From: Sulfurovaceae bacterium | GTDB taxonomy: Bacteria; Campylobacterota; Campylobacteria; Campylobacterales; Sulfurovaceae | Assembly: GCA_028714675.1 (NCBI GenBank) | Contig: JAQTLV010000003.1 | Location: forward strand, 1-64,000 | Direction: 5' to 3' | Length of the DNA: 64,000 nt | In this document: positions 6,011 through 9,100 of the stretch, piece after piece | How positions within the stretch are numbered: the first letter of the stretch is position 1 | Layout: every line of letters starts with the position of its first letter | The notes under the pieces: model-generated | The model's input: the letters and a program-made list of their open reading frames with translations, nothing else | What the model was told of the DNA's origin: nothing | The model's database searches: none | Translations under genes and position numbers: made by a program

Positions 6011-6038
6011 AATAAAATCTCCACATGGAGATTTTATT
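6011..6038. terminator. Bidirectional hairpin terminator after groEL
   Basis: A perfect 12-bp stem (AATAAAATCTCC / GGAGATTTTATT) with an ACAT loop, A/T-rich on both flanks. It lies between two convergent genes and overlaps the last codons of the response regulator gene, so it can stop transcription from both sides. Confidence 0.85.
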
Positions 6039-6681
6039 ATTGTATCATATATCCAACATCTCTAAAAGTCAAAATAACATTATTCCCTATTTTATTTCTT
6101 ATCCTATAAATTGTTGCCGATATTGTATTGCTCGGTGTGTCATTTTCCCATACTTTTTCACGAATTGTATCAAGTGATACTACTTTACCTTTATTTCGGA
6201 GTAAAATCTCTATAAAATTAGTTTCTATTCGACTTAGCATTATTTTCTTCATATCTTTTTCTAAGATTTTTGTTTGAAAATCATAAACGAATTCATTGTT
6301 GAATTTAATTTTACATTGAGGGTATCTTGTTTTTTCTATCTTTTCTATTCTTATGAGCAGCTCTTCTATTTCAAATGGTTTTTTTATATAGTCATCACAA
6401 CCTAAACTAAATGCTTGCGATATGTGCTGTATATCAGTATATGAAGATATTATCAAATACGAACTATTCTTATATAGTCGTAAGTGTTCTATCAACTCTA
6501 GCCCATTCATTCCAGGTAGTTTTATATCAATAATAAATAGATCAATATTGCCAATATTGCTTATATCATCTATAAGCTCATCAGCAGTTTTATAGCCAAA
6601 AACTTTATATCCATTTTTTTCAAGCAGTAGTTTGATTGCAAAATTGAGAGATTCATTATCTTCAATTATCGTAATTACCAT
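6037..6681 (-). CDS. OmpR-family response regulator
   Basis: A 214-residue regulator. The receiver (1-120) has the acidic pair E7/D8, the phosphoacceptor D52 in FIIDIKLPG, S79/S80 in the Thr/Ser position and K101 in KKPF. The output domain (about 125-214) is a winged helix with the usual end (NTISATIYRIRNKIG ... GYMIQ), so it should bind DNA as a phosphorylated dimer. It lies 40 nt downstream of the histidine kinase gene 6722-8395 in the same direction and is its probable partner. The hairpin shared with groEL ends the operon. Confidence 0.92.
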   Translation of the reverse strand: MVITIIEDNESLNFAIKLLLEKNGYKVFGYKTADELIDDISNIGNIDLFIIDIKLPGMNGLELIEHLRLYKNSSYLIISSYTDIQHISQAFSLGCDDYIKKPFEIEELLIRIEKIEKTRYPQCKIKFNNEFVYDFQTKILEKDMKKIMLSRIETNFIEILLRNKGKVVSLDTIREKVWENDTPSNTISATIYRIRNKIGNNVILTFRDVGYMIQ

Positions 6682-6721
6682 AAAATCCCTTTTTTAATTT
6701 GTTTTAGCATAAAATATATTT

Positions 6722-8395
6722 TTAAAAATCCTTTTCTGTAGTTGTTTTAGCTTGACTAAGCATTTGTGTATTTTTAAACTTTATAACATTTGGATATCCA
6801 GCAATATCATTTTTATCTATTGCCACAATTTTAGTGTAATAGCAATCATCTTGATTTACGCTTGTTATTATTTCGGGTTTATTAGAACTATAAAAACATA
6901 TAATATTTTTAAACTGTTCATCTTTGGCTATGATAAATCTATATTTTTTTGCATTTTTTACTACTTTTGTTGTAATTTTTATTTTTCCGTTATTTAGATT
7001 ATCAAGTTTTATATCAGATGGTGGGCTAAGCAGTGTATCAACTTTCCCTTCATTGTATCCATGCCCACTTTGTATTTCTTTATCCCTAGATTCTACTGAT
7101 CCTTCTAAAACAGACAACGATGATTTATTATTGCTTTTATCAAATACAACTTTTGTTGCTTTGTTTGAAGGTTTGGCGCTTGATGCAATAAAATAAACAG
7201 GATTACCTTTTATATCTGCTTCTACATAGCCATTATCAATATGCAATCTTTTGTATGATTTCGAATTTGTTAGATTTCTAAAATGCCAAAAATTATAATT
7301 TGAACTATTTTTAACTCTTATGGTTGATCCATCTTCTATTTCAATAATATCAAATTCACCTTTTTTACTTATATTATCAAAAGTTGGAATTATTGGGAAG
7401 AAATAGCTAGCACCAAGCATGAAGGCAATAAAAGCAGCCGCAACTGTTGATAGATTATTTATTGTTCGTTTGGATTTTATTTGACGAGATAGCTCAAAAT
7501 TAAAAGTCATTTGTCCACTAGTTTTACTTTCAAAGTTGATAAAAGCACCATGCGTTTTAGCAACTGTTTTTACTAGAGAAAGACCTATGCCAGTTCCTGT
7601 ATGTTGCGCATCATCAAATGTTTGAAATTTGTCAAATAATTTTTGCTTGTCATGATTTTTGACATCCAGGCAACTGTTTGTTATGACAATTTTTAGTATA
7701 TTTTTTTCCCATACAAGAGTTAAATTTATAAAACCATTCATTATATTGTGTTCAATCGCATTGTTGATAAGATTGAAAATTGCTCTATCGAGCCAAAAGT
7801 AATCTCCATTTAAAACAGCTTGACCATTTGTTTTATCTTCTATCTCTAATTTAATTTTTTTTATTTGAATGGATGTTGTAAGGGATTTTATATTTTTATT
7901 AATCAATTCAATCATATTCACATTTTCAATTTTCAATGTTTTCGTTTCATTTTGATGGTTTAGTTTTTCTATATGAAGCATTTCCTCAAAAACTTTGACT
8001 GATTTACTGACAGATTCGAAAGCTTGCTTTGTTAGTTTGTTTCTATCTTCAATCCCAAAATCATATTTTTCTAACATTTCAAGTGACAGCATAGCAGTAG
8101 AAAGTATGCCTTTTAATTCATGTGAAGTAATTGGATTTATACATTCGCGAGAATAAAATTTGAAGGTTTTTATATAAAGCTTTAATATATCATATATGTA
8201 TTTTATGGATTTTCTATTTTGTATATTTTTGCAGTTTTTAAAAACTATAAACTCAGAATCATATCCAAAAGTAACAGAACTTTTATCTATACAAAGTTTA
8301 TCGCAATTACTTTGTTTGTTTTGAATAAAATCATAGTCATCGCACACTAAAAAGTCAGCAACTAGTTTAATTGTTTTTAGAAAATGTTTATCCAT
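6722..8395 (-). CDS. Histidine kinase with C-terminal FecR-like/FN3-like periplasmic domain
   Basis: A 557-residue protein of unusual order. Residues 1-80: no recognised domain, no membrane helix. About 85-150: HisKA with phosphoacceptor H92 (TSHELKG). About 165-305: HATPase with N-box (FNLINNAIEH), GTGIGLSLVK and final FNFEL. Residues 313-334: one hydrophobic helix. 335-455: FecR-like segment (IEDGSTIRV, GYVEADIKGNPVYF, LSVLEGSVES). 455-545: FN3-like module of the type that follows FecR domains (AKKYRFIIAKDEQFKN, YYTKIVAIDKNDIAGYP). The basic KSKR before the helix predicts the kinase inside and the C-terminus in the periplasm, reversed from ordinary kinases. Partner: the regulator at 6037-6681. 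Confidence 0.85.
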   Translation of the reverse strand: MDKHFLKTIKLVADFLVCDDYDFIQNKQSNCDKLCIDKSSVTFGYDSEFIVFKNCKNIQNRKSIKYIYDILKLYIKTFKFYSRECINPITSHELKGILSTAMLSLEMLEKYDFGIEDRNKLTKQAFESVSKSVKVFEEMLHIEKLNHQNETKTLKIENVNMIELINKNIKSLTTSIQIKKIKLEIEDKTNGQAVLNGDYFWLDRAIFNLINNAIEHNIMNGFINLTLVWEKNILKIVITNSCLDVKNHDKQKLFDKFQTFDDAQHTGTGIGLSLVKTVAKTHGAFINFESKTSGQMTFNFELSRQIKSKRTINNLSTVAAAFIAFMLGASYFFPIIPTFDNISKKGEFDIIEIEDGSTIRVKNSSNYNFWHFRNLTNSKSYKRLHIDNGYVEADIKGNPVYFIASSAKPSNKATKVVFDKSNNKSSLSVLEGSVESRDKEIQSGHGYNEGKVDTLLSPPSDIKLDNLNNGKIKITTKVVKNAKKYRFIIAKDEQFKNIICFYSSNKPEIITSVNQDDCYYTKIVAIDKNDIAGYPNVIKFKNTQMLSQAKTTTEKDF

Positions 8396-8424: not shown

Positions 8425-8444
8425 TTATCATATCTAAATGATAA
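8425..8444. promoter_or_regulatory. Inverted repeat between divergent kinase and PAS genes
   Basis: TTATCAT-6-ATGATAA, a perfect 7-bp inverted repeat about 30 bp before the histidine kinase start and 140 bp before the PAS gene. It is a candidate operator, for example for the OmpR-family regulator, but AT-rich repeats also arise by chance. The rest of this 189-bp gap shows no gene. Confidence 0.35.
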
Positions 8445-8584
8445 TAAAATGATATTAAATAGATAACATAAGTTTTTATGGGTTAAATATTTAACTTATA
8501 AATATAATTTATAAGTTTGTTCCTAAAAGGTAATAATATTTTTTTATAATTTCCAAGTATATTTATTTGCATGGAGGTATTATT

Positions 8585-9100
8585 ATGCAGACAGAATTAA
8601 ATAATAATGACGCAAGGTTGAGTGATTTTAGAAATGTTTTTGTAAAATCAAATAAAGATTATTTTAAATCTGTAATTTATGGAAAAAATAAAGAATCCAA
8701 TATTAATGAAGAATATAATTTTGCAGGAGGAATTATTGTAAGTTCTACCGATTTAAATGGGATTATAACTTATGCAAATAGAAAATTTTGTGAAATATCA
8801 GGATATGATAAAGATGAGCTTATCGGATCAAATCATAATATAATAAGACATCCTGATATGCCACATGAAATATTTAAACAGGCATGGGATGTCTTGATGG
8901 AGGGTAAAGAATGGTCTGGAGTTATAAAAAATCTCAGAAAAGATGGCAAATTTTATTGGGTATATAGTCATATTATGCCAATAATGAAAAATGGTCAGCC
9001 AATAGGTTATAGTGCTGCTAGAAGACCACCTATGGAAAGCGAACTAAATGAAGCAAAAGAACTTTATAGAGATATGATAGCTAAAGAAATAAATATTTAG
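8585..9100 (+). CDS. PAS-only Aer/CetB-like redox sensor
   Basis: A 171-residue cytoplasmic protein with a 50-residue N-terminal tail and one PAS domain (about 48-150). It resembles the FAD-binding PAS of Aer: NRKFCEISGY, ELIGSNHNIIRHPDMP, WSGVIKNLRKDGKFYWV. The RHPD residues linked to FAD binding in Aer are present. It has no output domain, so like Campylobacter CetB it presumably signals through a separate chemoreceptor. The frame stays open to a TTG at 8567, but GGAGG lies 7 nt before the ATG at 8585, which decides the start. Confidence 0.85.
   Translation: MQTELNNNDARLSDFRNVFVKSNKDYFKSVIYGKNKESNINEEYNFAGGIIVSSTDLNGIITYANRKFCEISGYDKDELIGSNHNIIRHPDMPHEIFKQAWDVLMEGKEWSGVIKNLRKDGKFYWVYSHIMPIMKNGQPIGYSAARRPPMESELNEAKELYRDMIAKEINI

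Follow-up and report, generated by a model that had tools for sequence, protein, structure and literature searches.

A putative inverted receptor histidine kinase with FecR- and FN3-like regions behind its kinase core in Campylobacterota

Models of histidine kinases assume that the signal passes down a transmembrane (TM) helix into the DHp helices. The kinase described here, encoded in a window of 64,000 nucleotides (the whole stretch of DNA that was analysed) from a Sulfurovaceae bacterium, and its family can be compared with several known systems. In Burkholderia, the BiofilmReg operon encodes an OmpR/CreB-type regulator, a LysM-FecR protein and a CHASE2-PAS histidine kinase, and a mutant of the regulator forms no biofilm (PMC5192318). 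The likeness to the window family lies in an OmpR-type regulator, a histidine kinase and a periplasmic FecR protein in one operon and in the link to biofilm, but in BiofilmReg the FecR protein is separate and secreted and the kinase is sensor-first with CHASE2, whereas in the family FecR-FN3 is fused behind the kinase and no CHASE2 was recognised in the loci read. In Campylobacterota, CHASE2 cyclase clusters hold a FecR protein and a TPR protein as separate genes (PMC9239204). These clusters (here L142-L144) share with the family the FecR-FN3 envelope module, TPRs and surface-related neighbours; their output is a cyclase and their FecR protein is separate, whereas the output of the family is a kinase.

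FecR regulators of the FecIRA type have, as predicted for the family, an N-in cytoplasmic signalling part, one helix and a periplasmic FecR domain. The family differs from them in the lack of an anti-sigma domain, in the FecR subtype and in the FN3-like region and TPRs that follow FecR. An order of cytoplasmic output first, one helix and extracytoplasmic sensor last is also that of PknB-type receptor Ser/Thr kinases and of the one-component regulators CadC/ToxR, but the family uses a histidine kinase with a response regulator as output. CreC/PhoR-type sensor histidine kinases share the HisKA-HATPase core, whereas in the family the presumed sensor follows the kinase, and the DHp helix lacks a HAMP or TM input. 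Each module of the window kinase is already known, and what appears to be new is the fused order: we found no description, in open-access text, of a histidine kinase whose sensor comes last, in agreement with the preliminary description, which knew of no such layout; our profile searches were made within Campylobacterota.

The kinase and regulator genes

The histidine kinase gene (6722..8395, minus strand) encodes 557 aa in the order kinase-TM-FecR-FN3, as defined by the ORF, Pfam and a 14-member family, and it starts with an ATG that is also the start of the orthologue. The DHp/HisKA region comprises residues 86-150 (7946..8140, minus strand), with the phospho-acceptor H92 at 8120-8122. The Pfam HisKA profile covers residues 91-147 of the window kinase with 18 bits, which is under its cut-off; all 14 family members are matched by the profile and H92 is invariant in the alignment. 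It is followed by the HATPase catalytic domain (residues 151-304; 7484..7945, minus strand), of which residues 198-304 are covered by the HATPase_c profile (5.8e-14). The N box and G2 box are intact, and N208, N212, G267, G269 and G271 are invariant across the family. At the position of the G1 box (7661..7678, minus strand) the aligned residues are NSCLDV in place of DTGIGx, a degenerate form. The best NCBIfam match of the kinase core was CreC (8.6e-28), far under the CreC cut-off.

The N-terminal part of the protein, about 85 residues (1-85; 8141..8395, minus strand), is soluble and carries a CxxxC...C pattern. In the alignment this pattern is kept in three Sulfurovaceae-type members and absent from the other 11, and it is possibly a metal or redox site.

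A single membrane helix was placed at residues ~315-336 (7388..7453, minus strand) by the hydropathy of eight members and by the alignment, in which Y331 and P337, at or just past the helix, are invariant. The window kinase has a single hydrophobic segment (318-336, mean hydropathy 2.08, against 1.03 for the next best), and its flank on the kinase side (IKSKR) has a net charge of +4. In all eight members tested a single helix with a positive kinase-side flank was found at the same place (hydropathy 1.7-2.3), and none of them showed a hydrophobic segment ahead of the kinase. From the single segment and its +4 flank, the kinase core is predicted to be cytoplasmic and the C-terminal part periplasmic. 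It could be argued that the segment does not cross the membrane and that the C-terminal region is a cytoplasmic scaffold, as the crossing is predicted by hydropathy alone and TPRs are frequent in the cytoplasm. We regard this as highly improbable, given the recurrence of the segment and its positive flank in the eight members and the FecR regions of the relatives compared, which we take from family knowledge to be extracytoplasmic.

Behind the helix lie a FecR domain (residues 346-435; 7091..7360, minus strand; PF04773, in 10 of the 14 members) and an FN3/Ig-like beta region (residues 456-541; 6773..7030, minus strand), the latter assigned by comparing the family profile with FecR-FN3 proteins. 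The order given in the preliminary description, with the kinase first, then a single helix and FecR and FN3-like parts behind it, is thus borne out by Pfam, hydropathy and family profiles together, with FecR marginal and FN3 indirect.

The next gene, on the same strand, encodes the OmpR/PhoB-type response regulator P0002 (6037..6681, minus strand; Response_reg 1.5e-21, Trans_reg_C 1.6e-13), with D52, which is the presumed partner of the kinase. An OmpR-type regulator adjoins the kinase in 13 members, and in the remaining one (G499) it lies about 8 kb away in the same cluster. The earlier proposal of output to an OmpR-family regulator is supported. The P0002 orthologue beside the G499 kinase cluster is 59% identical (next best 31%). 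In the window the pair adjoins groESL. A PAS-only protein (PAS_3 4e-18) is encoded at window positions 8567-9100 (plus strand) and at L031:15991-16554 (plus strand); its gene adjoins the kinase pair in both genomes, on opposite sides, which suggests a mobile neighbour or a partner.

Affinities of the C-terminal half

The Pfam FecR profile (PF04773, cut-off 24 bits) matched residues 346-435 with an E-value of 6.6e-4 in the whole protein and of 1.2e-4 in the C-terminal part alone (22.9 bits). When the window protein was searched alone the scores were 22.9 and 20.5 bits, both under the cut-off, and in a search of its own genome the score was 24.1 bits, above it. At E<1 the profile matched 10 of the 14 family members, and the relative in L095 reached 25.4 bits. 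For Pfam FN3 no match was listed for the window protein or the other members. The region corresponding to residues 456-541 in the family did match the repeated domain that follows FecR in FecR proteins of 384 aa (E ~1e-7 to 1e-6; best shuffle 0.23). In the 384-aa protein of L142, FecR (6e-16) is followed by matches to Ig_J and Y_Y_Y, both of which are beta-sandwich families. Of the two assignments made earlier for this half, FecR therefore stands as a marginal profile match (22.9 bits against 24), and FN3 finds its support through the FecR-FN3 proteins and not in Pfam.

A profile of the 11 C-terminal parts from Nautiliaceae and family f18 recovered the corresponding half of the window protein (3e-16, against 3e-4 for the best of 1000 shuffles). 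Split into its parts, the profile from this same source gave 5.5e-12 for FecR alone (best shuffle 0.05) and 9e-6 for the FN3 part alone (0.01). The conservation of the C-terminal half between the window protein and these relatives exceeds chance. AlphaFold2 models of the full-length protein and its C-terminal half, built from two sequences each, had pLDDT values of 33-37, too poor for a fold search, and no solved structure matching the C-terminal profile was found.

The family C-terminal profile matched FecR and the next domain of L053 and L057, both 384-aa FecR proteins, at 8e-13 and 7.5e-12. FecR proteins of anti-sigma length were matched at 2e-6 or weaker, although part of the L053 and L057 scores comes from the extra domain. 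In L142 the 384-aa FecR protein lies beside a CHASE2-GGDEF cyclase and a TPS-secreted adhesin. Because of these closest matches and their CHASE2 and adhesin neighbours, we file the putative sensor region with the CHASE2-associated FecR-FN3 envelope type and not with FecIRA. A CHASE2 partner beside the family members themselves was not recognised by eye in the loci read.

The preliminary description suggested that the kinase stands in for the anti-sigma domain in a FecR-type receptor, with an OmpR-family regulator taking the place of the sigma factor. As FecR-type surface signalling, this would mean that the FecR part touches a TonB-dependent receptor. The FecR domain, the single helix and the N-in arrangement are indeed as in FecR. 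However, the C-terminal part is most closely related to FecR-FN3 envelope proteins (E 8e-13), which have CHASE2 cyclases and a TPS adhesin as neighbours, and not to the TonB-linked FecR anti-sigma proteins; an FN3-like region and, in relatives, TPRs come after FecR; and the relatives sit with polysaccharide genes. An anti-sigma domain, a sigma factor or a TonB receptor was not recognised in the loci read. We consider FecR-type surface signalling improbable here, and the idea of a FecR-anti-sigma fusion was rejected on FecR subtype and neighbours.

As a separate observation, the genes for a FecR-Ig protein, a CHASE2-GGDEF cyclase and a TPS adhesin are clustered in L142 and in L143, possibly as a c-di-GMP adhesion system.

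The family and its neighbouring genes

In 397 Campylobacterota genomes, a three-sequence profile gave full-length matches in seven, at 1e-88 or better; the next matches, at 1e-30 or worse, were ordinary kinases and were confined to the kinase part. Family-level searches raised the total to 14 proteins: nine come from f15, which was taken as Nautiliaceae, two from f18, and the other three (window genome, G003 and G499) from the 175 genomes searched in the window's own family. The profile searches of Campylobacterota thus yielded 14 proteins of this layout, mostly at exopolysaccharide-type loci. One further f15 genome (G089) gave an ordinary kinase match only and no inverted member, and a match in G047 (L007) was rejected as a relative, being an ordinary PhoR-type kinase. 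The nearest named relative of the window genome, a Sulfurovum enrichment clone, carries an orthologue; apart from it, the scan of named genomes gave nothing but one unrelated kinase match.

In a tree of 55 kinases all 14 inverted kinases formed one clade with a support of 100, from an alignment built with the family's own profile, which could favour a single clade. The inverted order therefore arose once within this sample. All 11 members outside the Sulfurovaceae (Nautiliaceae/f18) start at or near the DHp helix, with ~10-40 residues before the phospho-acceptor His. Periplasmic TPRs are kept in 12 of the 14 members and lost in the window protein and its closest orthologue. The G499 kinase, which has the TPRs, is 43% identical to the window protein, and in the alignment the window protein ends exactly where the G499 kinase runs on into them.

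A locus with glycosyltransferase, polysaccharide deacetylase and TPR-barrel genes surrounds 11 of the 12 TPR-bearing members; the contig of the twelfth is too short. On the G426 contig only the regulator, the kinase and part of the ~445-aa gene are present. The gene order in Nautiliaceae/f18 is regulator, kinase (FecR-FN3-TPR), ~445-aa protein, ~1130-aa TPR protein, GT2 and ~610-aa polysaccharide deacetylase, followed, where the sequence allows, by a secreted protein of ~330 aa. GT2, polysaccharide deacetylase and TPR/beta-barrel genes were found in all 10 Nautiliaceae/f18 loci with enough sequence, an arrangement which we take to resemble PgaABCD-type export. In G499, from the window's own family, the genes after the TPR-bearing kinase encode a TPR/YaiO-barrel protein, a protein of ~380 aa and a GT2 that differs from the one in Nautiliaceae/f18, and the cluster also holds a deacetylase-like gene and the P0002 orthologue. 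The linkage in Nautiliaceae/f18 may be one inherited block, an independent arrangement coming from G499 only. Most likely, as judged from this gene order, the kinase/regulator pair of the relatives controls the linked polysaccharide locus.

Neither of the GT2s nor the large TPR protein had a match in the window and G003 genomes, in searches of which the third only included a positive control genome (G499) and the first two had none. The exopolysaccharide role is therefore not transferable to the window protein, and the window pair probably controls other genes.

We consider it probable that the gene pair is a two-component system with an inverted receptor kinase, in which a cytoplasmic kinase core, a helix and a periplasmic FecR-FN3 sensor are joined to an OmpR-type output. 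The N-terminal HisKA/HATPase core would lie in the cytoplasm, with one helix leaving after the catalytic domain, and the periplasmic FecR-FN3 module (with TPRs in most relatives) would sense the state of the envelope or of a surface polymer. When components of the envelope or of the polysaccharide bind or load the FecR-FN3-TPR part, the kinase would change in its dimerisation or its catalytic domain would be repositioned, in the manner of receptor Ser/Thr kinases and not by a movement of the DHp helices from TM-HAMP, and the altered kinase would phosphorylate the adjacent OmpR-type regulator. Input from behind the catalytic domain is proposed because 11 members start at the phospho-acceptor helix without an N-terminal sensor. 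Signalling through dimerisation or catalytic-domain position is favoured because the helix is attached to the catalytic domain and the DHp helix comes first in most members. Within the Nautiliaceae/f18 proteins the periplasmic part is the only input candidate, and its linker to the catalytic domain is short.

More tentatively, and with slightly more doubt than confidence, we propose a separate class of receptor histidine kinases in vent and sulfur-oxidising Campylobacterota, devoted to the sensing of exopolysaccharide synthesis or of the envelope, in which a periplasmic signal arrives from behind the ATP-binding domain or acts by clustering, and does not pass by way of the DHp helices. A family with helix and sensor behind the catalytic domain would be incompatible with the TM-to-DHp model and would offer a natural test of kinase control. 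The polysaccharide linkage also points to a function for this FecR-FN3 envelope module, which has been known mainly from CHASE2-linked biofilm and cyclase systems.

Two further observations concern these loci. The conserved protein of ~445-470 aa between kinase and TPR barrel (L092:11884-13212, with equivalents in L093-L096 and L129-L132) has no convincing Pfam match; its sequence is suggestive of a RecA/KaiC-like fold in which Walker A (GxxxxGKL) is degenerate, together with a receiver-like stretch. In the two f18 genomes a secreted-protein gene lies between regulator and kinase (L095:10745-12007, L129:7444-8682). The L095 protein is OmpA/TSP3, suggesting a cell-wall link, whereas the assignment of the L129 copy is based solely on its position and N-terminus.

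State of the window protein and its promoter

Between the window protein and the Sulfurovum orthologue, dN/dS was 0.04 for the DHp, 0.19 for the catalytic domain, 0.14 for FecR and 0.25 for FN3, and about 0.19 for the periplasmic part as a whole; the values are approximate, as dS is about 0.9. Purifying selection acts along the entire length of the protein, the presumed sensor included. At the G1 box the window protein has NSCLDV and G499 has NSSLGI, where the Nautiliaceae/f18 members have DTGxG. ATP binding may be altered in the window clade, and because of this degenerate box the kinase activity of the window protein is doubtful.

The window-lineage protein could then be a reduced, repurposed relic with weak or no kinase activity (perhaps phosphatase only), a shrinking FecR, TPRs and target locus lost and input perhaps through the N-terminal Cys region. 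Besides the G1 box, the loss of about 40 residues of FecR in the closest orthologue, the missing TPRs and the unmatched polysaccharide genes in the window genome are in line with this. However, the low dN/dS over FecR, FN3 and the DHp shows continued selection, the regulator is intact, the promoter is conserved, and copper-type kinases tolerate Asn in the G1 box. We think the relic reading unlikely.

In the kinase promoter, TATCATTT-like repeats are spaced every 11 bp (8436..8465, minus strand; two exact and one imperfect). This box is conserved in G003, yet so is the entire kinase promoter, and we put forward the TATCATTT repeat as a hypothetical autoregulatory box. One other exact match to the box was found in the window genome, likewise in G003, inside a porin gene; this coding match is probably due to chance. 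A regulon prediction from the TATCATTT box was dropped, since the sole extra match lies in the porin coding sequence and the TAACATTT triplets are PHO-box-like. Triple repeats of the TAACATTT type are located at G000:C1:449335-449364 and 456076-456105, by a phosphate-transporter-like gene and a PhoU-like/response-regulator pair, and look like the PHO boxes of this species.
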